Origin: a virus
Virus record (IMG/VR): IMGVR_UViG_3300032116_001189
Location: 1 to 25,603 of that record
Direction: 5' to 3' (one strand)
DNA: 25,603 nt
The notes below the pieces were generated by a model, which was not told the DNA's origin, made no database searches, and saw only the letters and a list, made by a program, of their open reading frames with translations. Below are positions 3,060-23,101 of the stretch, piece after piece (position 1 is the first letter of the stretch; each line of letters opens with the position of its first letter). Made by a program: the position numbers and the translations under genes.

Positions 3060-3453
3060 AATATAACTTATACGAGTCTTTATTTTGAAGTATATAGGCT
3101 GCTAGAGACCTAGCTAAGACTCTGACTGTCTTAAACTTATATCTGCTAAAGATACCCTTTGGGGTATAATTTACCATACAAGCATAACCATTAGTATGCT
3201 CATTTAAGTGTCTAATAGTAAACCCCTCTTCTCTAGTAGCTTTAAAGTCTATAGGTTTTTTCTTAAATTGTCTCATAGGTTTAAAGCGTACTACCTCAAA
3301 GTTACCTATAGGAGTTTCTATAGTCTTACCTTTAAATAGATGAGAATACAATACCTTTTGAAATTCTTTTAGAATTTTCTCATAAGGTAAGTCTTTTAAG
3401 TGTGGGTAAGCAATAAGGAAATTTCCCTTATTGTTGGCTTCCATCATTTTCAT
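2986..3453 (-). CDS. Conserved crAss-type neck-region protein, function unknown
   Basis: About 155 residues if started at the ATG at 3453 (MKMMEANNKG); ATGs at 3447 and 3444 are equally possible. The frame is open back to 3498, but that start would lie 71 bases inside the preceding gene and add a poor hydrophobic stretch. The core (YSHLFKGKTIETPIGNFEVV, then KPIDFKATREEGFTIRHLNE) is a compact basic beta-rich domain. I associate it with a small protein found between the ring proteins in crAss-like and other Bacteroidota phages, sometimes labelled IHF-like or structural. The C-terminus is a Ser/Thr/Gly tail. It shares 74 bases with the next gene. A nucleic-acid-binding or neck role is possible; I cannot choose between them. 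Confidence 0.6.
   Translation of the reverse strand: MKMMEANNKGNFLIAYPHLKDLPYEKILKEFQKVLYSHLFKGKTIETPIGNFEVVRFKPMRQFKKKPIDFKATREEGFTIRHLNEHTNGYACMVNYTPKGIFSRYKFKTVRVLARSLAAYILQNKDSYKLYYEVSKYKHSGVQAGTASSGTTPNS
3068..3074 (-). promoter_or_regulatory. CGTATAA box before the ring-protein gene
   Basis: CGTATAA on the minus strand, 8 bases before the ATG at 3059. Together with its flanks it is identical over 16 bases to the copy at 14001 (CTTATACGAGTCTTTA as read on the plus strand). It also lies within the coding region of the upstream gene. Confidence 0.35.
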
Positions 3454-4099
3454 TGTCTTTAGGAATAGCAAAGGTAAACTTAAACTCTGATTCCTCAAGC
3501 ATTCTTATGATGGTAGATAGCATATTATTAGAGATGGGGTAATCCCACTCCATACCTTGAAATGGAGCTATCTTCTTATTTAGTTTAGCAACAATCTCTG
3601 GTTCCTCAAATACTCCTCTAACAAGTACTTTACTAGTTATACAAGTAGGAGGGAACTTTACATATATATGATTCTCTCTAACAAACCATCTAGGAAATCT
3701 ACCTGCATGTCTGGTATAAGATACAGAACCAAGGGATTGTAAGTCTAATTGTGTCCATCTATCTTCAAAGTCTGCTCTACCTACATAAGTTAGGTAATCA
3801 TGCATATGCCCCTCAATAGGTTTAGGTATCTCAATAGCTGTTCTTAGTATCTTATCTCCACTCTTAAAAGCTGGATCCATAGGACTAATAACCTTATCTA
3901 CTTTCTCAAGATCTACTGTTAGTTCCTGTATAACAAATGGAGATAAGGGTCTAGCTTTCTCCATATCCTGTCTAATAAGAAAAGATCTATAGTAATTCAA
4001 GATGAAGAGTACTTGTCTATCAGAGAGAGGGTTATCATCTGATTGGGAGAACTTACTCCTAAGCTCTTGAATGGTATATATTATCTTAGATAGTAACAT
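3428..4099 (-). CDS. Ring/neck structural protein, crAss-like
   Basis: A 223-residue protein. The N-terminal helices (SDRQVLFILNYYRSFLIRQD) followed by a beta-rich region and a basic RFPRWFVRENHIYVKFPP segment match the layout of phage neck proteins of the T7 gp11/adaptor type. It starts just after a strong minus-strand terminator at 4122-4150 and a CGTATAA box at 4106-4112, so it may open a new transcript for the neck and tail genes. The last codons (NENDGSQQ) overlap the next gene by 26 bases, consistent with translational coupling. The ring-protein assignment rests on size, predicted architecture and position between the 429-residue surface-type protein and the tail hub. Confidence 0.6.
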   Translation of the reverse strand: MLLSKIIYTIQELRSKFSQSDDNPLSDRQVLFILNYYRSFLIRQDMEKARPLSPFVIQELTVDLEKVDKVISPMDPAFKSGDKILRTAIEIPKPIEGHMHDYLTYVGRADFEDRWTQLDLQSLGSVSYTRHAGRFPRWFVRENHIYVKFPPTCITSKVLVRGVFEEPEIVAKLNKKIAPFQGMEWDYPISNNMLSTIIRMLEESEFKFTFAIPKDNENDGSQQ

Positions 4100-4105
4100 A
4101 TGTTT

Positions 4106-4112
4106 TTATACG
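4106..4112 (-). promoter_or_regulatory. CGTATAA box before the 223-residue neck gene
   Basis: Minus-strand CGTATAA, 6 bases before the ATG and just after a terminator. It shares ACTTTCGTATAAAAA with the copy at 9621. Confidence 0.45.
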
Positions 4113-4121
4113 AAAGTATAT

Positions 4122-4150
4122 AAAAAGAAAGAGGGAAGATTTCTCTTCCC
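4122..4150 (-). terminator. Minus-strand terminator after the 429-residue gene
   Basis: On the minus strand GGGAAGA/TCTTCCC, 7 bp with a GAAA loop (4133-4150), is followed by TCTTTCTTTTTA. A CGTATAA box follows at 4106-4112, so this point both ends one transcript and may start another. Confidence 0.75.
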
Positions 4151-4175
4151 CCTAACCGTGAGTCTCCGTTATATC

Positions 4176-5465
4176 TTAAGAGAATGTATAAGAACCAGAG
4201 GTAGGACTACCAGCCCAAGCATCCCATACTTCAAGGAAGTTTTTAACTGAGTTAGCTGGAGAAGGAGTTAAATCAAATTGTCCATCTGCAGAAAAAGGAC
4301 AAGCAACTACAGCAGTTTGCAAGAACTCAGCTTGATTAGACTGCATCATGTTATATCCCCATCCAGAAGTATAAGCTACAGTAAGCAAACAATAAAAAGT
4401 TCCAGAAGTAGCATTCAGAGGGAACAACTCAGCTGGGAACTCTCTATAGTTAATCAAAGGGTTAGAGTTAGTGTAAGCTTTTTCTTCAAGGTCTCTAACT
4501 TGACGGAAAGAACCAATTGGATAGATAGGTTCTGTCTTAGTAACAGTAACTATACCAGAATCATTACCTTTAGGAGTAATTACTACAAAGTCAACCATTC
4601 TAAACTGATCAAATCTGTTTTTCTGAGTTTGAGCAATTGCAGTAAAATTAAAAGTAAAGCTATCAAGAAGTGTAGCTGTAAAATATGCAGCTGCAGTAGA
4701 TCCAGTACCAGAAGTAACTGAGGTATTAGAACCTTGATAAGCAGTATCAAGAGTAATGATTTTGTTAGTAGTATCAACTTTCTCTACAAGATAAGAACTA
4801 TCTCCAAGATTCAACATTACACCAGCAACAAGAGAAGCACTAACAGTACCGGAGTAAGTTACAGCTCTTGAACCTCTAGAAACTGTAAGATTTGCACCAG
4901 CAGCAGTAGCACCAGTAGCTGAGTTACTAAATACTGCTCTTGCAACATTTACCAACTGGTAAGGAGAACCTGCAGAGGTAAGAGGATTAGCAGCAAAACC
5001 TTTAGCAATAGTGCTAGCCATTTCCATTTTGTAAGTAGCATCTGATGCAGAAAGAACAGCAGGAGTAGTATAAGAACCAATAACTTCAGTGTTCTTATTG
5101 TAAGTACCCATACGCAGATCTTCTTTAATCTGAATACCAATAGAGTAAGTAGTAGATGCAGCAAGGTCAGTTGAAGCTACAGCTGCAGTAGCAGAAGCTT
5201 CAGCAGTTGAAGATTCGTTATCATTAACTGCAGAGATATACTTAATGTTAGCAAGTTTAATTGGTGTAGAAAATACAGGAGTATTTACACCATTCTTACT
5301 AATGCAAGAAGCAATAACTACATCTTTAGATGTAAGTCCACTAGTGTTTGCTGCAAGTGGAGTGTAAGTAGCAGCATCAAGGAGAAGAAGGTCTCCAGGT
5401 ACCATTGTAGCGACAGTAGTTCCAGTACCTGCACCATCACCTACGAAAACTTTTAAAAGTTCCAT
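4176..5465 (-). CDS. Thr/Ala/Ser-rich virion protein (auxiliary capsid or tail surface)
   Basis: A 429-residue protein with low charge and long runs of Ala, Thr, Ser and Gly, as in phage decoration, fibre or tube proteins. Residues ~190-260 contain a repeat-like beta region (TVSRGSRAVTYSGTVSASLV). The C-terminal third is more ordered (PIYPIGSFRQVRDLEEKAYT). There is no signal peptide. It is the last gene of its sub-operon: a perfect GGGAAGA/TCTTCCC hairpin with a GAAA loop and a T-rich run follows it. The terminator suggests an abundant product whose expression is uncoupled from downstream genes. Position between two neck-type genes supports a virion role. Auxiliary capsid, head fibre or tail-tube functions are all possible. 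Confidence 0.55.
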   Translation of the reverse strand: MELLKVFVGDGAGTGTTVATMVPGDLLLLDAATYTPLAANTSGLTSKDVVIASCISKNGVNTPVFSTPIKLANIKYISAVNDNESSTAEASATAAVASTDLAASTTYSIGIQIKEDLRMGTYNKNTEVIGSYTTPAVLSASDATYKMEMASTIAKGFAANPLTSAGSPYQLVNVARAVFSNSATGATAAGANLTVSRGSRAVTYSGTVSASLVAGVMLNLGDSSYLVEKVDTTNKIITLDTAYQGSNTSVTSGTGSTAAAYFTATLLDSFTFNFTAIAQTQKNRFDQFRMVDFVVITPKGNDSGIVTVTKTEPIYPIGSFRQVRDLEEKAYTNSNPLINYREFPAELFPLNATSGTFYCLLTVAYTSGWGYNMMQSNQAEFLQTAVVACPFSADGQFDLTPSPANSVKNFLEVWDAWAGSPTSGSYTFS

Positions 5466-11558: not shown

Positions 11559-13955
11559 CTATTTGCTTTTGGGTTTATACTTAAGAGCTTTCTTCTTAAG
11601 AGATATCTCTTCTTTCTTAAGTGCAAGTTTATTATTCTCAAGTTTCATTCTATCATTATGGATTTTATTCTGTTGAGAGTTTTCTCTGTCTTGCATCTCT
11701 TTTTGCATCTGCATTCTAGACTTCTCAATTTCCATTTTCTGTTGTTTTTCAACTTGCTCAAATTGTTGCTTAGATTGTTGTAGAGAGAGTTTAGTAGCTT
11801 CCATTACATCAGGTATAGCATTCTGATTTACATCAGGATTATTCATACCAATACTTCCAAGAGCTCTAATCTCAGCTTCTCTAAGTCTTGCTTCTCTATC
11901 AAGTTGTTTTTGGTTCTCATCTCTATCCATCTTCTCTCTAGCAATTCTTTCATTACTCTCAATTTGCTGTTGCTGAATTTGAGATTGTTGCTCTTGAAGT
12001 TTTTGTTTTCTTTCCTCAGAAGCTTTAATAGAGGATTCTACCTCAGCAATAGAGTTGCTCTTAAGAAGGGTAACAAAGTTAGAGAATTGCAGAGTTCCAG
12101 AGGAAATACCTTCCTTAGCAAGACCCTTAAGTTGTTCAAGGATTGCATTATCCTTAATACTATCAGATACATAAAGTCCAAAGTCAGTGTTTAAGAGAGA
12201 TTTAGTATTTAAGACTGTTCTAGAGAACTCATCAAATACCAGTTTACCATGTTCATTAGTAGAGTATGCAATTTTAGCTATCTCTAATAGATGTTCAAGT
12301 ACCTTCTCCTTAACCATAGAGTGCTCATGGAAGTATATCTCAGTAAGAGCATTACTTTGTACTACAGATCTTTCTACACCTCCTACAGTCTCAGAGCTGT
12401 TAATTTGTCCTTTTCTCTGTCTAGAGATACCAGTAATATTTTCTACTGCTTCCTCAATCTTAGATAACATTGAGAAGTATCCTTGAATAGAGTTACTGAG
12501 AGTCATATCTATACCAGTAAACTGGTTAAACTTAGATACAGAGGAGGGATCTCCTTCTCTACCTTCTTCTGCTGAGTTTACAAATGCAATACCCAGAGTA
12601 TCAAAGTAATACATCCATTGCTCTACTGTCCATCCCTTAGATTTAGGTATTTGAGCAATATCCATTACAAACTTCTTACCCTTTGCCTTAGCAAACTCTA
12701 ACTCTAGTCTGTACCATATAATGTTATATAAGTACTGGTAGGGTTTAATGAGGTCCACAAGTGAGGTCGGCTTGCTGTTGATGTTGTTGAATATTCTACC
12801 AATGAAGGGGAGTTTACACTTATATGGATTGTCCACTGTGTTAAATTGATAGGGACTCTCGTAAGCAAAGAAGATTGTTGGTCCAATTTGGACTCCAATC
12901 CATGTTCTTGGAATCCAGTTCCACTCAACTGTAATTTCCCCTTTAAGTTCCTCAGGAATTTTAAAACTCTCATCAACAACTTTCTTTTGTACCTGTCCAT
13001 TCTGATCAAGGTAAGTTGCAGTCCCAATTTTCTTCTCACTTTTCCATGTGGTAAGCTGCATGAGAATCTTGGTACCTGTGTAGTTGTAGTGTGGGTATGT
13101 TGTTGTAATGACTTCTGGGGATTGTCCATATGATGCTGTTGCATTAAATATTTCTGCACTTCTTAAGTTCTCTTTATCTTTATCTGTAAGTCTGTCTCCA
13201 AACCAATCTAAGATTTGACCTCTATCTAACCACATTCTACCTACTGCCCAATCACAATCCTCAATAAAGAGTGAGTCTTGATTCTTATCACACTCAAAAT
13301 GTATTGGGTTCCAAGGAATTAAGACAGGTTCATTGTTAAAGATACCTGCATAGTACACCTCTTCTGCACAAGTAAGTGCATTCTGAAAACCTCTAATAAA
13401 ATGATTCTTAAGCTTAAGAGACTTCTCAAGGTGGTTTAAGAGTTTATTAGCAGTTATCTCTACATTATTAGTATAGGAGTTTGTAAAGTATTCCTCTACT
13501 TCCTTAGGAGTTTCTGCTTCTACCTTTTCTCCTAAAGCATTTCTAAGGATAGCAAGATAAGAGTACTCTAAAGCTTCTTTCTTGTCTTGGAGGTATTGGT
13601 TAAAGCCTTCTCCAGCAGTGGAGACAACTTTATAGGTAAATGGTCTTTTAAGCTCTTCTCCAACCAGTTGAAGAACTGAGGAACGCACAATATTATAGTC
13701 CTGAAAGTTAGCAGGAAGATTCCCAATGCTATCATGTATATCAACACCATAAGGCTTAGTGACATAGCTAAAGTCTTCAATATTGACAATGGAGTTAAAA
13801 AGATCATAATTAATTTGCTTAGCCTCTCTAGAAGTGCGAGATCCAGATAGGTTAGAGTATGCTCTACCTACTAGTGCAATAATGCATTTCTTCTGCCAAT
13901 CTAAGGTTTCCTTAGTTTTCTGAGGTACTCGTTGTTCTGGGAGTGGTGGAATCAT
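11559..13955 (-). CDS. Portal protein, crAss-like
   Basis: At 798 residues it is the size of crAss-like portals, which are larger than most. It has the usual sequence of a helical N-terminus, a region with conserved Trp/Pro motifs (TVEWNWIPRTWIGVQIGPTI) in the middle, and NITGISRQRKGQINSSETVG around residue 515, a segment that recurs in portals. The last ~150 residues form a long Gln/Glu/Arg-rich coiled coil with a basic end (KPKSK). It follows terminase directly: the start ATG shares a base with the terminase TAA (TAATG), so the two are translationally coupled. It should form the dodecameric DNA entry ring at one capsid vertex. Confidence 0.88.
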   Translation of the reverse strand: MIPPLPEQRVPQKTKETLDWQKKCIIALVGRAYSNLSGSRTSREAKQINYDLFNSIVNIEDFSYVTKPYGVDIHDSIGNLPANFQDYNIVRSSVLQLVGEELKRPFTYKVVSTAGEGFNQYLQDKKEALEYSYLAILRNALGEKVEAETPKEVEEYFTNSYTNNVEITANKLLNHLEKSLKLKNHFIRGFQNALTCAEEVYYAGIFNNEPVLIPWNPIHFECDKNQDSLFIEDCDWAVGRMWLDRGQILDWFGDRLTDKDKENLRSAEIFNATASYGQSPEVITTTYPHYNYTGTKILMQLTTWKSEKKIGTATYLDQNGQVQKKVVDESFKIPEELKGEITVEWNWIPRTWIGVQIGPTIFFAYESPYQFNTVDNPYKCKLPFIGRIFNNINSKPTSLVDLIKPYQYLYNIIWYRLELEFAKAKGKKFVMDIAQIPKSKGWTVEQWMYYFDTLGIAFVNSAEEGREGDPSSVSKFNQFTGIDMTLSNSIQGYFSMLSKIEEAVENITGISRQRKGQINSSETVGGVERSVVQSNALTEIYFHEHSMVKEKVLEHLLEIAKIAYSTNEHGKLVFDEFSRTVLNTKSLLNTDFGLYVSDSIKDNAILEQLKGLAKEGISSGTLQFSNFVTLLKSNSIAEVESSIKASEERKQKLQEQQSQIQQQQIESNERIAREKMDRDENQKQLDREARLREAEIRALGSIGMNNPDVNQNAIPDVMEATKLSLQQSKQQFEQVEKQQKMEIEKSRMQMQKEMQDRENSQQNKIHNDRMKLENNKLALKKEEISLKKKALKYKPKSK

Positions 13956-16003
13956 TAGTTACTAAATAATTTAGAAGAGAAGAAATCTCTACCATTCCTC
14001 TTATACGAGTCTTTAAAAGCAGGCTGTACTCTAGTCAACTCTATACTTCTAATAAGAGCTAGTGAGAAGGATATAAATCTATCAAAGTTACCTCTACTAT
14101 TGTAAGTAATAAGTTCTTGTAGTAGTCCTACACTCTTTATCTTATATACATTACTCTTACCATCCTCATACTCCTCTCTTAACCAGTTATTTACATAGGT
14201 AATGAGTTCATTCTTAACAGAGGAATATGAATTGCCGACAACTCTGATACCATAGGTGTTTGTGTGTTGGTTAGATGCAGCCTTGACAATACTTGGCGTT
14301 CTGGATAATAGATGTAACTTATGTTTGTTCTCACAGTGAGTTTTGAAATTGTTGATGTTATTCTCATATAGACAACTTGCATTATAGTACTCAATTAGGA
14401 GGATACATTGGTCATAGAATTCTTTGAAGTTCTGTGGCCTACCTGTATATTCTGCAACTGGAAGATCATGGGTTTCTTCCCCAATAGCATATCTTTTAAA
14501 GATAAATAGTGAACCAAGAGACTCACTATAGCTAGCTTCATCTGTAGCATAAGGATCTAACCCTGCAGTGTATAAATTATACGATGTACCAGGGGTTGGT
14601 TTCTCCCAAATCTGTATACATCCACTCTTATCAAGGGATTTATCTCTATATTCTAGTGGTCTTAAGGACAAATCTGGAATAAATTCTGGATTACCCCTCT
14701 CATCATAAGACATTTTACCACAGATACCCTTATACTCATCCTTAGTTTGGCATAATCCCAGTTGTTTACGCAGATCTTCAGTAGGAAATACATTATTAGA
14801 GATAATTTGAAAGGCTTCAGAAGGTGACCAAGCATACTCAGTAGTATGTCTAAGATACTCATCAGGAGATTTAGCTTTAGCTTTCTTATTTTCTCTGAGT
14901 TTAGTAAGGAGTTCTTTGGCTTTAGGTATATCTGAGTTGCCTTCTTTATCATAAGCCCCTTCATAGTTCTGATACATAGGAAAAAAGAAGCCTGCAGACT
15001 TTTCTTTTAAGCCATCCTCATCCCATACATTCTCAAAAGGCATCATATTATAGTTATCTGGGTTGTAATACATCTCTGCAAAGTCAATAGTACCAGCTTC
15101 CATGTCACCACCAGTACCAAAGACAATCATCATCCCAGTATAATAATCACCAGCCTTAATAGAAGGTTCCATAGCATAATAACTCTCATTCCAATTAATG
15201 AAGGTACCTGCTTCTTCTACAATAATTTTACTTGCATCAGCTCCCCTTGCAGCATCAGGGTTATTTTGAAAGGATACACAAGTAATAGCACTTTGATGTC
15301 CTTTAGAAAGCTCAGTACCATCATCAGTATACTCAATATAACCACTCTTAATGCGTCCATCAGCTATCTTATTAACAAGCCTACTTCTCTTAAAAGCTGG
15401 GCAATTAGTATTCAGATGATTAAGCATATCCATTACCTTAGTAAAGATACCAATTTCTGAGAATAGATACTTCTTATCATAAGCAGCTACTAAGGTTAGA
15501 CTTTTCTTGATGAAGGTATATTCCCAAGCAATGGTAGCAGCATTCTTATAAGAGAATCCTCTTCTTCTTGCTTTACCTACTATCATACTCTTTCCTCCCT
15601 CTGTCCATAAAACCTTGTTATTCAGATGTAAACTTGGGATTAAGGTAGGGTCTATACCATTCTCTGCTATCTCTAGAAACCAGAAGTACTCAAAGTCACC
15701 ATCCCAAAAATCAGGAAGTAGGAATCCTTTAGAGACCTTTCTCTTACCTCTATTATCATCAGTCAAGTTTACTTTATTGATGAGACAATAGTTTAGATAG
15801 AAATAATGTTTACCAGTAATCTTAGCTCCAGAAACTTCATAGCCATTGATACATCTATCATATTCTTGATCCCAGAATCTATCAAATTCTAGAGTCCCAG
15901 GAAGAGCATCAGTATATCTACCAGAAGTTATAAACCTATTACCGGCCTCTCTAAAAGGCTCAGTATTAATCCATATACCATTCTTATTTCTTATTGCTCC
16001 CAT
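13955..16003 (-). CDS. terL: Terminase large subunit (packaging ATPase and nuclease)
   Basis: A 682-residue protein. A Walker A-type loop appears at residues ~143-152 as GKARRRGFSY, the Arg-rich variant usual in crAss-like terminases. Walker B is IIVEEAG at ~260-266 with the acidic pair, followed by the coupling motif (IVFGTGGD) at ~293-300. The nuclease domain begins near residue 480 with AGLDPYATDEAS, where D483 is the expected first metal ligand. It cuts concatemeric DNA and drives it through the portal encoded immediately after. The first 13 bases overlap the preceding gene. Two CGTATAA heptamers lie within it; the one at 14001-14007 sits 45 bases upstream of the portal ATG and may be a promoter. 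Confidence 0.93.
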   Translation of the reverse strand: MGAIRNKNGIWINTEPFREAGNRFITSGRYTDALPGTLEFDRFWDQEYDRCINGYEVSGAKITGKHYFYLNYCLINKVNLTDDNRGKRKVSKGFLLPDFWDGDFEYFWFLEIAENGIDPTLIPSLHLNNKVLWTEGGKSMIVGKARRRGFSYKNAATIAWEYTFIKKSLTLVAAYDKKYLFSEIGIFTKVMDMLNHLNTNCPAFKRSRLVNKIADGRIKSGYIEYTDDGTELSKGHQSAITCVSFQNNPDAARGADASKIIVEEAGTFINWNESYYAMEPSIKAGDYYTGMMIVFGTGGDMEAGTIDFAEMYYNPDNYNMMPFENVWDEDGLKEKSAGFFFPMYQNYEGAYDKEGNSDIPKAKELLTKLRENKKAKAKSPDEYLRHTTEYAWSPSEAFQIISNNVFPTEDLRKQLGLCQTKDEYKGICGKMSYDERGNPEFIPDLSLRPLEYRDKSLDKSGCIQIWEKPTPGTSYNLYTAGLDPYATDEASYSESLGSLFIFKRYAIGEETHDLPVAEYTGRPQNFKEFYDQCILLIEYYNASCLYENNINNFKTHCENKHKLHLLSRTPSIVKAASNQHTNTYGIRVVGNSYSSVKNELITYVNNWLREEYEDGKSNVYKIKSVGLLQELITYNSRGNFDRFISFSLALIRSIELTRVQPAFKDSYKRNGRDFFSSKLFSN
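14001..14007 (-). promoter_or_regulatory. CGTATAA box upstream of portal
   Basis: Minus-strand CGTATAA inside the end of terL, 45 bases before the portal ATG. Its flanks equal those of the copy at 3068. Confidence 0.35.
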
Positions 16004-16714: not shown

Positions 16715-17042
16715 TAAAGATAAATTTAATATCTGCTAGATATATACCATTCCTAAAGCCAGAAGAAGTTAAGAGACCCTTCTTCTTAAGGGATGCTTTA
16801 ATGTTGTTGTAAGAAGCATCTTTTAAGGAGAGTTTATCCTTAATTTTCTTGTTAGTCTTAGGGGAGTTTAATAGTTCCCATGCAATAGTTGGGGTACTTT
16901 GGCTAAGGAATTCCTCATATTCCCTAAGTAATTCTGCAGAAACTTTTATTTCTGTCTCAGTAAGGTTAAAGTTTAGTGCCATAACCCTCATATAGTTGAG
17001 GTAAGTATCACCCCTCACTGCTATTAGTCTCTGTTTCTCCAT
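16704..17042 (-). CDS. Small winged-helix-like protein
   Basis: About 112 residues if started at the internal Met (MEKQRLIAVRG) at 17042. The frame is open to 17108, but that start would overlap the previous gene by 101 bases and adds a Leu-rich stretch of doubtful value. The C-terminal half (LSLKDASYNNIKASLKKKGL, then FRNGIYLADIKF) resembles a winged helix: a recognition helix followed by a two-strand wing. Crass-like phages have such a small wHTH gene before the terminase cluster, and it may regulate late genes. It is tightly packed with both neighbours. Confidence 0.55.
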   Translation of the reverse strand: MEKQRLIAVRGDTYLNYMRVMALNFNLTETEIKVSAELLREYEEFLSQSTPTIAWELLNSPKTNKKIKDKLSLKDASYNNIKASLKKKGLLTSSGFRNGIYLADIKFIFSET

Positions 17043-17406
17043 TAGTAAAAGGTATCTTAAGTTGTATAGAGTTAAGTTCTTCAGCAAGGTGTCTTTCCTC
17101 AGCTTCATTAATAAGTCTCATTATCTCTTCTGGGGTTTCCAAGAAGTTAAACATAATATCCTCAGTAAGTCCTTGCATAATAGTAAAAGTTTTCTCAGTC
17201 AAGGGAGAAGTTTGATTACCAATAAGGATAAAAGGAGGTAGTGTATTAAAGGCAAATACAATATCTTTATAAGCTAAGTTTTCCCCTTCATATACTTGTT
17301 CTCCAGCTTCCCTTAACATATCAGCAATATCATGTGTAATACTCTTTCCCTTAGAATCTTTTAATGAATCCTCAAATACTAACAATTTTAATTTTATACT
17401 TTTCAT
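17008..17406 (-). CDS. First gene of the late leftward operon, function unknown
   Basis: A 132-residue protein with a mixed alpha/beta N-terminus (SIKLKLLVFEDSLKDSKGKS), a hydrophobic middle (VFAFNTLPPFILIG), a helix rich in Glu (PEEIMRLINEAEERHLAEEL) and a Ser/Thr/Glu tail. I do not recognise the family. It is the promoter-proximal gene of the minus-strand arm: its ATG lies about 20 bases downstream of a TATATTTG box (17427-17434). The gene after it begins within its last 35 bases under my preferred start. Confidence 0.55.
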   Translation of the reverse strand: MKSIKLKLLVFEDSLKDSKGKSITHDIADMLREAGEQVYEGENLAYKDIVFAFNTLPPFILIGNQTSPLTEKTFTIMQGLTEDIMFNFLETPEEIMRLINEAEERHLAEELNSIQLKIPFTNGETETNSSEG

Positions 17407-17418
17407 ATTTATTCGTAT

Positions 17419-17434
17419 TATACTTGCAAATATA
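17419..17434. promoter_or_regulatory. Possible bidirectional promoter core between the two arms
   Basis: The sequence TATACTTGCAAATATA is almost its own reverse complement. On the minus strand it reads TATATTTG at 17427-17434, a full match to the Bacteroidota -7 box TAnnTTTG, with ATTG 21 bases upstream as a weak -33 element. On the plus strand TATACTTG (17419-17426) matches in seven of eight positions. Genes diverge from it at 17406 and 17447, 13-20 bases away on each side. Confidence 0.5.
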
Positions 17435-17446
17435 TATAAAATTTTT

Positions 17447-17644
17447 ATGAATAGACAATACAGGAGAAAAATGGAAAAATTGCAGAAGAAAGAGTATGAT
17501 CTTTTTGTTAAGAAGAATAAAAACTTTTTAGATGCAATAAAGGGAGATCAAGGATCTCAACAAGCATTACAAAGAATCAAAGAACTATTAGATAATTATG
17601 GCAAAAAACAAAGTAACGGAGACCCTATTCAAGAAGAAGCCTAA
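17447..17644 (+). CDS. Small charged helical protein, first rightward gene
   Basis: A 65-residue protein: a basic N-terminus (MNRQYRRKMEKLQKKEYDLF), a helix (SQQALQRIKELLDNYGKK) and an acidic end. It should be a single long helix or helical hairpin. It is the first gene on the plus strand, 13-20 bases from the divergent promoter. The next small gene begins inside it, 47 bases before its stop. I do not recognise a family. Confidence 0.6.
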   Translation: MNRQYRRKMEKLQKKEYDLFVKKNKNFLDAIKGDQGSQQALQRIKELLDNYGKKQSNGDPIQEEA

Positions 17645-17732
17645 AACCTCACTTGGTAGACATGCTAAGAAAGATAGTATCTCTAAGGCTAGTAAGAGGT
17701 ATAAGAAACCTTATGCTGGACAAGGAAGATAA
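17598..17732 (+). CDS. 44-residue basic protein ending in GQGR
   Basis: Overlapping frame with ATG at 17598 inside the preceding gene and TAA at 17732: MAKNKVTETLFKKKPKTSLG followed by RHAKKDSISKASKRYKKPYA and GQGR. It is strongly basic (about one residue in three is Lys or Arg), rich in Ser/Thr, and has no hydrophobic core. The pattern of GRHAKK, SK-S-K-YKK and a terminal GQGR is one I associate with short proteins in crAss-like and other Bacteroidota phages, which argues that this is a real gene. A nucleic-acid-binding or packaged role is plausible from charge alone. It is followed by a structured non-coding stretch. Confidence 0.65.
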   Translation: MAKNKVTETLFKKKPKTSLGRHAKKDSISKASKRYKKPYAGQGR

Positions 17733-17771
17733 AATATTTTTTTAGAAGTAGATATAAAGTCAAAAATTTTA

Positions 17772-17897
17772 CGTATAATTACTTAAAGTAATTACATACA
17801 TCTTTAAGGATGTATTGGGTGTACTGTAAGTAGAATCTAAGAGGCATTGTATAGCATATGCAATCAGGGGTAGTAGCTAAGTTACTACCTTTTTGTT
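17772..17897 (+). ncRNA. Candidate small RNA: three hairpins plus terminator
   Basis: No frame of note lies here. Stems in order: TAATTACTT/AAGTAATTA at 17776-17794 (9 bp around one base); ATACATC/GATGTAT at 17796-17815 (7 bp, 6-base loop); ATTGTATA/TATGCAAT at 17846-17864 (8 pairs, one G-U, 3-base loop); and a terminator stem GGTAGTA/TACTACC at 17869-17889 followed by TTTTTGTTTT. A plus-strand CGTATAA box (17772-17778) is at its left edge. It may be an independent RNA or the 3' UTR of the 44-residue gene. Confidence 0.5.
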
Positions 17898-17899
17898 TT
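17869..17899 (+). terminator. Intrinsic terminator
   Basis: Perfect 7 bp stem GGTAGTA/TACTACC with a 7-base loop, followed directly by TTTTTGTTTTA. It ends the transcript of the first two plus-strand genes and the hairpin cluster. Confidence 0.7.
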
Positions 17900-18055
17900 A
17901 CAGAAAAGTAGTATTGTATTTTACATTTTTAAAATTTTTTTAAAATTTTTTTTACTGTGTGGGGGTAATGGATAGCTAACAACAAAGTCCCCCAATCTCT
18001 TAGTTAGGGCGCGTACCCCCTTGCGTCTTTGTCTCACAATTTAATAATTACTAAA

Positions 18056-18301
18056 ATGCAGATTGCAAAAAACACCCCATTTTTCTTTCATTCTCTCCGT
18101 GGAGAGAAGTCGGCTCTCATCCTGGTTAAAAAGCCAGGTGTATTTAGTGGCACACCAGTATATGTAGCAAGAGACCTTGTTGCAGGTATGAACCCTGGAG
18201 ATGTAGCACGTCTTCAGATGGACTACACTGCCATACCTTGGATAGTAGATGGCGAGGCCAGAACTACCAAGACTGGTGAGGCACTGCTCATCCTGCAGTA
18301 A
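18056..18301 (+). CDS. 81-residue protein of unknown function, GC-richer than neighbours
   Basis: I start it at the ATG at 18056 (MQIAKNTPFFFHSLRGEKSA); a TTG at 18029 would add nine residues without need. The product looks like a small beta-rich domain (ALILVKKPGVFSGTPVYVAR in the first half, VDGEARTTKTGEALLIL at the end) with no cysteines, signal peptide or membrane segment. Base composition is visibly more GC-rich than in any neighbouring gene, and its codons include GTG, CTG, CTC and GGC that are rare elsewhere in the window. With its own leader and a strong terminator 4 bases after the stop it looks like an independent unit, possibly acquired from the host or another phage. Function not recognised. 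Confidence 0.65.
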   Translation: MQIAKNTPFFFHSLRGEKSALILVKKPGVFSGTPVYVARDLVAGMNPGDVARLQMDYTAIPWIVDGEARTTKTGEALLILQ

Positions 18302-18305
18302 TCAC

Positions 18306-18326
18306 GGGGGCTATGCCCCCTTTTAT
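18306..18326 (+). terminator. Intrinsic terminator after the 81-residue gene
   Basis: GGGGGC/GCCCCC perfect 6 bp stem with a TAT loop (18306-18320), followed by TTTTATTT. It begins 4 bases after the TAA stop. Confidence 0.85.
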
Positions 18327-18329
18327 TTG

Positions 18330-18602
18330 CTTTTTTATAGAGTAGAAACTTTTAGTAACATTGTTTACTGATTGTGTAAGTGATTGATAATCACTATAAC
18401 TCTCTATCACTCAACATACAAATTAAGGCTATTCCTTGTGTGTTGTTTTAATTTAATTATATAGCCATTTTTATACCTTACTGAACAAAGAGAGTATTCA
18501 GTGATGTTTGCATAGCTAGCAAACAAGGTTCTATCTTGACTAATAGGAGAGACTATTAAAAATTGTTAGAATTACAGGGGTGAAATTCCCCTTTCTTTTA
18601 AT
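18330..18602 (+). ncRNA. Candidate structured RNA of about 260 bases
   Basis: There is no gene between the terminator at 18306 and the frame at 18619. Stems: GTGATT/AATCAC (18380-18394); GGCTAT/ATAGCC (18427-18466, wide loop, followed by ATTTTTATAC); CTGAA/TTCAG (18481-18501); TGTTTGC/GCAAACA (18505-18525); TAATAG/CTATTA (18541-18558); and a final AGGGG/CCCCT hairpin with a T-rich run (18576-18602). It could be one RNA, or two separated by the stem at 18427-18466 acting as a terminator. Confidence 0.45.
18576..18602 (+). terminator. Intrinsic terminator
   Basis: AGGGG/CCCCT stem with a 7-base TGAAATT loop, then TTCTTTTAATTCTTT. It closes the hairpin cluster before the small frame at 18619. 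Confidence 0.6.
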
Positions 18603-18618
18603 TCTTTAATTCAAGTAT

Positions 18619-18744
18619 ATGTTTTTCTGTATTGAACACACAATATTTTGTTCTATTGTTTCAGTAGGACAAGACTATATTATTGTAGATTCTAATGGTC
18701 ATAAATATGTGACTAATTGGGATAATCTAATTGTTCCTTTTTAA
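18619..18744 (+). CDS. 41-residue hypothetical protein
   Basis: ATG at 18619 to TAA at 18744. The product starts MFFCIEHTIFCSIVSVGQDY and continues IIVDSNGHKYVTNWDNLIVP F. The second half (GQDYIIVDSNGHKYV) reads like two strands of a small beta barrel, which is why I list it; the first half is hydrophobic with two cysteines. No ribosome-binding motif, but none is expected in this group. The stop overlaps the left arm of the 12 bp helix that starts at 18741, so translation could affect folding of that element. Existence is uncertain. Confidence 0.4.
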   Translation: MFFCIEHTIFCSIVSVGQDYIIVDSNGHKYVTNWDNLIVPF

Positions 18745-18827
18745 TTACAACAACAGGGCTCTGTTCCTGCCTATGATATTTATCTGAATAGATAAATGGA
18801 GGGAAGAAAATAAAATGTTGTAATTAA
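18741..18827 (+). ncRNA. Candidate three-way-junction RNA element closed by a 12 bp helix
   Basis: TTAATTACAACA (18741-18752) is the exact reverse complement of TGTTGTAATTAA (18816-18827). Inside lie AACAG/CTGTT with a GGCT loop (just after the left arm, partly competing with its last bases) and TTTATCT/AGATAAA with a GAAT loop (18779-18796). Such a closed, branched fold in 87 bases suggests a regulatory RNA or riboswitch-like leader for the genes that follow. No known class recognised. Confidence 0.45.
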
Positions 18828-18830
18828 AAT

Positions 18831-18953
18831 TTTTGATTACATACCAATTGCAAGTGGTTAAGAAAACAAAAAAAGTCTATCTATTGAACTCTCAAAATAT
18901 AAACTGCTAGAGTTGTGAGTTCTGTAACAGTGTAAACTTAATTGTAATCAAAA
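18831..18953 (+). ncRNA. Candidate RNA element closed by an 11 bp helix
   Basis: TTTTGATTACA (18831-18841) pairs exactly with TGTAATCAAAA (18943-18953). Enclosed are ACCA/TGGT (near 18843-18858) and GAACTC/GAGTTC (about 18886-18922) stems. It follows the preceding element by 3 bases and ends 58 bases before the lipoprotein ATG, so it would be in that gene's leader. Between 18954 and 19011 I see nothing else. Confidence 0.4.
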
Positions 18954-19011
18954 TTAGTCCTAAGCATGACTATAAACTGCTTTTCTTTTATTTAGTAAAC
19001 AATTACCAATT

Positions 19012-19224
19012 ATGATAAAAAAACTTTTAACAATACTATCAGTGGGAGTGCTGTTAGTATCATGTACAACAAGTCCTGAAGATAGAGGATTATATCCTGT
19101 TGCAGTAAGGATTATTGGTACCCCAATAGTAAAAACAACACTAGTAGATACTCTATTAGTTGTTGGAGATACTGTTGAGACAAGACATAGAGATACTCTT
19201 GCACTATCAATTATTATTAGATAA
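19012..19224 (+). CDS. Small phage lipoprotein
   Basis: A 70-residue protein with a classic lipoprotein signal: MIKKLL, a hydrophobic stretch (TILSVGVLLV) and the lipobox LVSC at residues ~15-18, so the mature protein starts at Cys18 and has about 53 residues. The mature part begins TTSPEDRGLYPV and has beta character. It is probably exported and anchored in the host cell envelope. Small phage lipoproteins act in superinfection exclusion or as outer-membrane spanins; neither is shown by the sequence. A 41-residue frame starts on its stop codon (TAATG). Confidence 0.75.
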   Translation: MIKKLLTILSVGVLLVSCTTSPEDRGLYPVAVRIIGTPIVKTTLVDTLLVVGDTVETRHRDTLALSIIIR

Positions 19225-19349
19225 TGCATACTATCTATGTAAACAGAGAAGTCTATTCCCAGGTGTGGAATAGGCTCTCTTGCTTTTGTAAAGTTTATTC
19301 TCGCAAATATGAGGATGGACAATACATTTTAAGGATTGCTTTTAAGTAA
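19224..19349 (+). CDS. 41-residue protein coupled to the lipoprotein
   Basis: Its ATG shares the last base of the lipoprotein TAA stop (TAATG at 19222-19226), the same coupling seen at other gene pairs in this window. The product is MHTIYVNREVYSQVWNRLSC, then FCKVYSRKYEDGQYILRIAF K. It is basic and aromatic, with a Cys-Phe-Cys pair and no signal or membrane segment. The stop lies inside the following terminator stem. No family recognised; coupling and coding appearance make it likely real. Confidence 0.5.
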   Translation: MHTIYVNREVYSQVWNRLSCFCKVYSRKYEDGQYILRIAFK

Positions 19350-19360
19350 TCCTTTTTGTT
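19331..19360 (+). terminator. Intrinsic terminator between lipoprotein unit and large RNA region
   Basis: AAGGATTGCT/AGTAATCCTT stem of 10 pairs (one G-U) with a TTTA loop at 19331-19354, followed by TTTGTT. Any transcript of the region 19361-20095 therefore needs read-through or its own promoter. Confidence 0.8.
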
Positions 19361-20095
19361 AATGCACCATAACTCACTTCCCAAGGGTGAGCAGTTGTAA
19401 TAATATTCTCCCATCGTGGTAAGAACAGAGAACTATACTATGTGAGTATAGAGTACAATAATTTTATTGTATTGAAGTACATCTATTACAACTGAGTGCA
19501 GAGGGGCAAATTAAATGTGGTTAGCCGATTAATAGACACAAGTAACCTGAATTGACAGGCTGGGTATAGCGTTTCGCATATCATAGGTATAAGTGGAATA
19601 CCAGTGTTTGAGTTAAACAGAGTTAAGCTGTGTATACTCCAAGGGATTAATGCCCTCTATTTGTTGCCTAGAGCAAACACGATTTAGTGTTATAGGCTAT
19701 TTAGAACTTGGCAAGTTCACACATTTATTTATAAACTGGGGTTAGTGAATTACCCAGTATAAAAGACTCAATACTATCCAGTAAGTTACTGGCTGTTTGG
19801 ACAAACTAGACTCAAATGTCATAGGCTGATATACCTGAATGTATATCTGTATGAGTTGTAATCCCTCTGATCAAGGGTAAACATTAGAGAAGCAAATAAA
19901 TGACTTAATTGTACCCACGCTTGCTCTTATGGAAAGATAACTGTCAGTTTATAATGGGGACAGAAAATAATAAAACAACTTATACATTTAAGTAGACAAT
20001 TAAGAACCTTTAGAGATATAAGTATGCTCACGGTGTCTACATAATGCAAGTTTTACTCTTGCTACTAATCTTTATGTTTCACATTAATCAAACTT
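19361..20095 (+). ncRNA. Candidate large structured non-coding RNA (~735 bases)
   Basis: No frame longer than a handful of codons starts here, yet stems follow each other along its whole length. Clear ones: CAGTTGTAATA/TATTACAACTG (19392-19402 with 19484-19494, 11 bp) enclosing CTATACT/AGTATAG (19433-19451) and TACAATA/TATTGTA (19454-19471); GGTTA/TAACC (19519-19547); CCTG/CAGG; GGTAT/ATACC; GCCTA/TAGGC with inner AACAC/GTGTT (19666-19697); GAACTT/AAGTTC (19704-19718); ACTGGG/CCCAGT (19735-19758); CCAGTA/TACTGG (19778-19792); GATATAC/GTATATC (19828-19847); CCCT/AGGG; CTGTC/GACAG; GTAGACA/TGTCTAC (19992-20040); GCAAG/CTTGC (20046-20062). Size, density of stems and phage context resemble the GOLLD/ROOL type of ornate RNAs, but I cannot match it to a known class. 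Confidence 0.6.
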
Positions 20096-20099
20096 AAAA

Positions 20100-20255
20100 A
20101 TGGATCCTAAAATTCAGCAAAATCTTGAAGAGTTAAAACATTTTGATAGCTCAACAGCATTTATTGCTCTAGATTTAGAGCAATACATTAAAAAATTGCT
20201 TTTAAGAATCAAAAACTTGGAAGAAGCTAATAAGTTTCTTGAAAACTCATTGTAA
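20100..20255 (+). CDS. 51-residue coiled-coil protein
   Basis: ATG at 20100, TAA at 20255: MDPKIQQNLEELKHFDSSTA, then FIALDLEQYIKKLLLRIKNL and EEANKFLENSL. The heptad-like spacing of Leu/Ile suggests a coiled coil that probably dimerises. It is preceded by ATCAAACTTAAAA, the same A-rich leader seen before the genes at 20276 and 20656, which supports the start. It is the first gene after the large non-coding region. No family recognised. Confidence 0.6.
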   Translation: MDPKIQQNLEELKHFDSSTAFIALDLEQYIKKLLLRIKNLEEANKFLENSL

Positions 20256-20275: not shown

Positions 20276-20614
20276 ATGGCAATTGAAAAAAACTTTAAAA
20301 CATTCTGTCTTTTTGAAGGCAGACATGAACTTCCAACAAATGAAGGTGCTATATGTACCTCATTTGATTTTATTACTAAAAAGGTAGTAAAATCAGAACT
20401 TTGGAAAATTGCGCGCAATGAACCTCATTGCAAAATTATTGTTACAGGTCTTACTCCTGCATTAACAGAGTTTATCTCTGATTGGTGCAGTGAATGGACT
20501 TTTAACAGAGGAGATCTGTATATGAATTGTGATATGCTCACAGGATTTGCAGACTTAACACTTCTTCACTTTGATTCTCAGAGTGGAGAATACTGGGAAC
20601 AGAGGGTAATTTAA
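20276..20614 (+). CDS. 112-residue protein with TGLTPAL / LHFDSQSGEYW motifs
   Basis: The centre and end read KIIVTGLTPALTEFISDWCS and LTLLHFDSQSGEYWEQRVI. The arrangement strand-TGLTPAL-helix followed by a strand-H-[FY]-D-x-x-[ST]-GEY ending is one I believe recurs in small proteins of Bacteroidota phages and mobile elements, with a Rossmann-like alternation. I cannot name a function. The leader ATCAATTAAAAAA matches those of neighbouring genes. The mRNA contains a 12-pair hairpin (20365-20395) and a 7 bp hairpin (20415-20431). The stop lies in the loop of a terminator. Confidence 0.65.
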   Translation: MAIEKNFKTFCLFEGRHELPTNEGAICTSFDFITKKVVKSELWKIARNEPHCKIIVTGLTPALTEFISDWCSEWTFNRGDLYMNCDMLTGFADLTLLHFDSQSGEYWEQRVI

Positions 20615-22986: not shown

Positions 22987-23060
22987 GGTTCTGTAGCTCA
23001 GCTGGATAGAGCAACTGCCTTCTAAGCAGTAGGTCTTTGGTTCGAATCCAAACAGAATCA
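22987..23060 (+). tRNA. tRNA-Arg (anticodon TCT)
   Basis: A full cloverleaf can be drawn. The acceptor stem is GGTTCTG/CAGAATC (one G-U). The D arm is GCTC-AGCTGGATA-GAGC. The anticodon stem is ACTGC/GCAGT with loop CTTCTAA, giving anticodon TCT (reads AGA/AGG). The variable loop is AGGTC, the T arm TTTGG-TTCGAAT-CCAAA, and the discriminator base A. CCA is not encoded. AGA is the main Arg codon in these AT-rich genes, so the tRNA would supplement the host supply. It lies 10 bases after a coding gene and before two terminators. Confidence 0.93.
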
Positions 23061-23101
23061 CATGTTATTTTGGTTAATTGTGAAACAATAGGTATGTAAA
23101 T

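Follow-up and report, generated by a model that had tools for sequence, protein, structure and literature searches.

A probable divergent type-P1 twister ribozyme at the start of a gene-free region in a crAss-like phage

Introduction

The question raised by positions 19361-20095 of the window (the whole stretch of DNA analysed, a 25.6 kb IMG/VR fragment of 25,603 nt from a crAss-like phage) is which RNA, if any, is encoded in some 735 nt without a useful frame. The original prediction was a single large and ornate RNA. A structured RNA was indeed found at the 5' start of this region, in positions 19353-19513, and the proposal was not borne out for the rest of the 735 nt. With a probability of roughly 0.86, this element is a divergent type-P1 twister self-cleaving ribozyme that would cut the rightward transcript at U19360/A19361 inside an operon. 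This reading draws on its sequence, its structure as seen by covariation, its position and its distribution.

Phage identity and gene layout

The crAss-like assignment made from the sequence alone was supported by TerL and the portal, whose nearest named relatives, with ~35% identity, were Flavobacterium phage FpV21-type and gut crAss phages. Genes are directed leftward up to position 17406 and rightward beyond it, and the region 19361-20095 sits in the rightward part, flanked by a 41-aa frame and a 51-aa frame (20100-20255). As had been noted, the region holds no useful frame (no ATG frame longer than 31 aa on the plus strand), the next gene starts at 20100 and a tRNA, here a tRNA-Arg, lies downstream. 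The composition is less AT-biased than in the surroundings, with a GC content of 0.34-0.36 against approximately 0.27-0.34 in the flanks, a mild difference. The coordinates of all features are listed in Table 1.

Table 1. Features of the window and of the probable ribozyme.
Feature	Position	Strand	Evidence or remarks
Portal	11559-13955	-	phage-family match
TerL	13955-16003	-	phage-family match
41-aa open frame (putative gene)	19224-19349	+	3' end inside the terminator-like hairpin
Terminator-like hairpin	19331-19354	+	-10.9 kcal/mol; its U-tract supplies the 5' strand of P1
Probable twister-type ribozyme, whole element	19353-19513	+	48-copy alignment, covariation, R1
Stem P1, 5' strand	19356-19359	+	pairs with 19506-19509
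Predicted cleavage step U19360/A19361	19360-19361	+	in twister the U-A step lies 3' of P1 (PMC5408937); 'UAA' in Rfam consensus
Stem P2 (UGCA)	19363-19366	+	pairs with 19497-19500; always paired but invariant
Candidate pseudoknot T2, CC	19367-19368	+	complementary to GG 19385-19386 in all copies; invariant
P4 hairpin, loop L4 UUCCCAAGG	19373-19391 (19373-19377/19387-19391)	+	covariation
L4 CCC, pseudoknot T1	19380-19382	+	pairs with GGG 19503-19505
Stem P5 and variable cap 19402-19484	19392-19494 (19392-19401/19485-19494)	+	covariation; insert varies among relatives
GA of GAGGG, putative active-site guanine position	19501-19502	+	invariant in A2; alignment to published layout
Module B	19514-19730	+	outside the window only in L002, behind its ribozyme, short shared pieces aside; fold z -0.8
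Module C	19721-20099	+	common to L005 in blocks 19721-19846 and 19987-20099; fold z -0.7
tRNA-Arg	22987-23061		within window

Conservation and distribution

Neither BLAST of the region 19361-20095 against named phages, which gave nothing useful, nor the downstream gene 20276-20614, through which no relatives were found, opened the locus to comparison. Twenty related loci were retrieved using the 132-aa protein encoded at 17008-17406. Those reaching far enough shared positions ~19347-19404 and 19484-19518 only; the insert between both blocks was unrelated, and so was most of the later sequence.

A pattern of the 5' half matched at least 119 IMG/VR stretches, one or two of them estimated by chance; these records are fragments and redundant in part. 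Distinct copies were read (n=110), and 104 carried the expected 3' half. Three of the six others were checked and showed small changes there, and the remaining ones end early. A pattern of the 3' half matched 17 stretches, all of which, except L031 (unrelated sequence), also have the P4/L4 part, as well as the TTAATGCACC part wherever the contig extends that far; this reciprocal search thus regained the same 5' side. The search pattern itself accounts for part of the 5' invariance, and positions internal to a pattern are not usable as evidence of invariance. A further copy (L092) has GC in place of the GA of GAGGG.

Forty-eight copies were aligned (alignment A2), and a covariance model of our own (R1) found a single location in the window, 19353-19513 (109.5 bits, E 9e-29). 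A looser 5' pattern over genome contigs gave chance matches, which were reused as a negative control: on these cellular loci (0.6 Mb), R1 found nothing below E 0.28. A descriptor gave 138 matches among viral loci and 2 in Markov sequence (7.5 Mb), a test that is partly circular because the viral loci were fetched by pattern. The element was present in 18 of 18 large records, and only once in 14 of them, counting G001, whose second weak match is the same place on the opposite strand. Three tandem copies were observed in L128. A search of named crAss-like phages with R1 gave no clear family member, and only weak twister-P1 matches in three.

Structure and covariation of the element

Compensatory changes in homologues, the check proposed with the original prediction, were strong for 19353-19513. 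In A2, 17 of 28 pairs, two pseudoknots counted, change on both sides, and 94.6% of paired cells are complementary, in comparison with 84.0% after shuffling and no more than 46% after a shift of one to three columns. P4 changes on both sides in all five pairs, with 98.8% of cells paired, and P5 does so in eight of its ten pairs; the previously noted 11-bp stem 19392-19402/19484-19494 is this P5 stem. In P1, changes on both sides occur at each of the three outer pairs, with 69% of cells paired, and these pairs were formed in 82, 77 and 70 of 104 copies, with 46, 48 and 50 expected; the inner P1 column, U19359, faces G or A in 46 of 48 copies. Since P1 pairs 19356-19359 with 19506-19509, the element starts at ~19353-19356 and not at 19361 as first placed. 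P2 forms four complementary pairs in every aligned copy, the pattern used in the search having set its 5' strand. Neither P2 nor T2 shows any variation, and both are therefore without covariation support; a possible alternative to the T2 pairing is C19367-G19496.

Pseudoknot T1 joins CC(C/A) with (G/T)GG, as C-G in 88 and A-T in 16 of 104 copies, without mismatches. Both states occur in the group of the window (L002, L005, L016 and L017 versus L006 and L019) and in the GTAGCCTGG flank context (L079 and L150 versus L047 and L088). As the states are mixed in at least two separate flank contexts, the exchange has been repeated, or was moved by recombination. A search for the T1 prediction with T/G at the middle position gave a single match, the decayed copy L299, in which T stands at the T1 position and the 3' strand is lost, not compensated. 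The minimum free energy fold of the window copy is the nested part of the proposed structure (z -3.6 for 19353-19513). Between the end of L4 and the 3' core the copies have 22 to 165 nt, and their P5 arm measures 16 to ~160 nt.

The remaining part of the region

About fifteen stems had been taken as a sign of unusual structure. Over the whole region the fold z was -1.5, with 1 of 20 shuffles equally good, and by parts it was -3.6 for 19353-19513, -0.8 for 19514-19735 and -0.7 for 19736-20060, the two latter at chance level. Two neighbouring protein genes fold better (z -8.4 and -5.5), so the stem count is no evidence here. Only the first ~150-160 nt are general among relatives, and the remainder occurs in one relative each; module C is found elsewhere in L005 only, apart from short shared pieces. 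One hairpin of module B has a compensatory change (GGUAU/AUACC to GGAGC/GCUCC), and in two-sequence comparisons the closing helices and one hairpin of the modules differ compensatorily. The other ~580 nt consist of two swappable segments, both rare and with putative structure.

Genomic context and proposed cleavage

As had been described, the region begins after a terminator, a terminator-like hairpin that ends 4 nt before 19359. Hairpins of -8 kcal/mol or lower ending within 10 nt of the ribozyme were present in 37% of 104 copies, and by the same criterion in 4% of shuffled sequences and 11% of random positions. The upstream frame of the window ends inside the hairpin, which leaves no promoter room before the ribozyme, and the ribozyme should therefore lie within a longer transcript. 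No Bacteroidetes-type promoter TAnnTTTG was found in 17301-20150 on the plus strand. Of 93 cases, 80 have their nearest downstream frame on the strand of the element, often at a distance of 30-50 nt, and the genes differ; a riboswitch reading was rejected because the downstream genes share no common identity.

From these data we infer catalysis, the cleavage site and the biological role as follows. The ribozyme would be transcribed as part of the rightward phage transcript and would fold into P1, P2 and P4 with pseudoknot T1, probably T2, and an additional P5 arm. The transcript would then be cut between U19360 and A19361, just after the terminator-like hairpin and within the operon. The upstream product would end in this hairpin with a 2',3'-cyclic phosphate, and the downstream product, comprising the ribozyme and the next gene, would begin with a 5'-OH. 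In this way cleavage would determine RNA ends and stability where two parts of a single operon meet. The probable function of the element is to sever the transcript of the phage itself at a single defined position.

Small elements and genes near the twister copies were also recorded. A small hairpin, CCTAAGCATG...AAACTGCTTA, recurs in the window (18960-18985, plus strand) and in L037, L096, L100, L115 and L120, and stands directly before the twister in several contigs. In L144, a phage RNA-binding protein gene (phrog_850; PF25043, PF11443) lies at 3266-4651 on the plus strand, 209 nt past its twister.

Alternative explanations

A twister-derived fold that no longer cleaves and instead gives the downstream gene a structured 5' leader or a protein-binding element would accommodate the unusual T2 and L4, the large P5 inserts and the location 30-50 nt ahead of many start codons. 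It is improbable, since the catalysis-linked U-A step, the GA of GAxGG and the AAG of L4 are kept in nearly all copies and the downstream genes vary, with no common regulated gene seen; the weight of the kept 5' nucleotides in this argument is lowered by pattern bias. Quite improbable as well is a single GOLLD/ROOL-like phage RNA of 735 nt in which the ribozyme would form the 5' domain. In its favour, no gene starts before 20100, a few compensatory changes link modules B and C to single relatives, and L005 repeats the order of twister, hairpin module and module C; against this, an Rfam match is absent, no folding excess is seen outside the ribozyme, and L011, L016 and L017 have a gene leader directly after it.

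The abrupt switch of downstream sequence and genes at the edges of the element, together with its tandem copies (L128), could also point to an element acting at DNA level, a recombination hot spot or an origin with hairpins read on single-stranded DNA. This is very improbable: the pseudoknot and junction geometry fit a known RNA enzyme, wobble-type changes are frequent in the column beside P1/T1, and the element shows a same-strand bias relative to genes.

Other structured RNAs

Hatchet ribozymes were above the Rfam cut-off in 4 of 34 records, among them L147 (10327-10463, plus strand; 82.2 bits). A hatchet sequence pattern occurred at eight loci of crAss-like phage contigs (L147, L034, L050, L054, L067, L088, L146 and L148), always on the same strand as the twister and 739-1443 nt upstream of it. 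The segment between both is not simply a non-coding RNA, as small frames can fit there. The hatchet upstream and the twister downstream might excise a defined RNA with 5'-OH and 2',3'-cyclic-phosphate ends, a possible ligation substrate that could yield a stable, even circular, phage RNA; we consider this rather unlikely. The window had no hatchet match, so its partner would have to be an unrecognised ribozyme. The Pistol family gave no match, but control genomes were likewise silent.

A second conserved structured RNA was observed in the window at 18377-18475 (plus strand), ~0.9 kb upstream of the twister. It combines the fixed hairpin GUGAUU-GAU-AAUCAC with a covarying helix of 11 bp and a possible pseudoknot, and is kept in 11 relatives, with six pairs changing on both sides. 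A further conserved RNA module, ACTCTCATCCAA(GC/TTGC)AGG ... AAGGGTTGCAACCTTGTGAGAGT, lies usually 80-300 nt upstream of the twister (L030 4552 and L043 5808, both on the minus strand, L068, L147, L153 and ~20 more); it had no Rfam match and is absent from the window. RAGATH-7 was identified above the Rfam cut-off (169 bits) at L292 1284-1497 (minus strand), in gut crAssphage cr60_1 (NC_055891.1).

Significance

What twister ribozymes do biologically is described as an open question in PMC5408937. A form missed by Rfam, mostly single-copy and widespread in crAss-like phages, offers a family in which this role can be tested, and the hatchet beside the twister in eight relatives gives the hatchet class a phage home. 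No report of twister or hatchet in crAss-like phages was found in open-licence PMC papers. These data suggest that divergent ribozymes with large inserts are under-counted.

Comparison with known systems

The likeness to GOLLD and ROOL noted originally lies in a phage-borne structured RNA, an ORF-free stretch and a tRNA within a few kb; in contrast to these large RNAs, the element is a twister-type ribozyme of ~160 nt, it matches no Rfam large-RNA family and the longer region is unconserved. Hatchet (RF02678) is a neighbour of the twister-type element in eight relatives, with an unrelated fold. RAGATH RNAs, which are linked to genes in the vicinity of twister and hammerhead ribozymes, are represented by RAGATH-7 in the crAss-like cr60_1, and none was present in the window.

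The Rfam covariance-model search of the region gave no ribozyme or large-RNA match at gathering or at E <= 5-10, and the twister families did not match the window copy even at E <= 10. The copy L110 was also missed; its P5 is very short, so the P5 insert alone is not the cause. Such a match concerns a detection threshold (cut-off 67.2 bits) and not a structural feature; other crAss-like copies scored 30-48 bits against Rfam twister. At two other crAss-like phage loci, R1, built without them, and Rfam twister-P1 coincide: the second copy of G002 (73701-73776; R1 22.9 bits, E 7e-4; Rfam 48.5 bits, E 3e-11) and Bohxovirus PV686213.1 (77756-77843; R1 21.9 bits, E 0.0015; Rfam 36.3 bits, E 1e-7). 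Both families are therefore linked without reading by eye. Sub-threshold Rfam twister-P1 matches in crAss phages were recorded at NC_055896.1 2153-2205, PV686213.1 77759-77839, with two tRNAs within ~450 nt after it, and NC_055891.1 17419-17472; in the match of cr113_1 the T1 strands are GAC and GUC, a compensated change.

The element and type-P1 twister (RF03160) have the same order of parts, P1, UAA, P2 (4 bp), T2 strand, P4 with L4 UCC-N-AAG, P2', GA-N'-GG and P1', with a co-changing T1 and the U-A step, in agreement with the plan of the Rfam consensus and the description in PMC5408937. UAA, UCC-N-AAG and GA-N'-GG are kept in the alignment, the 5' side being partly imposed by the pattern and the 3' side not. 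Unlike RF03160, the element is without P3 and has a long P5 arm; among known twisters P3 is present in 78% and P5 in 1% (PMC6154101). It carries one more U in L4; the closing pair of this loop, a near-invariant G-C in twister, varies; and its T2 is CC/GG in place of the conserved GC/GC (PMC5408937). In T2 a sequence preference is lost and not an essential stem, hence the designation of the element as a divergent subclass of twister.
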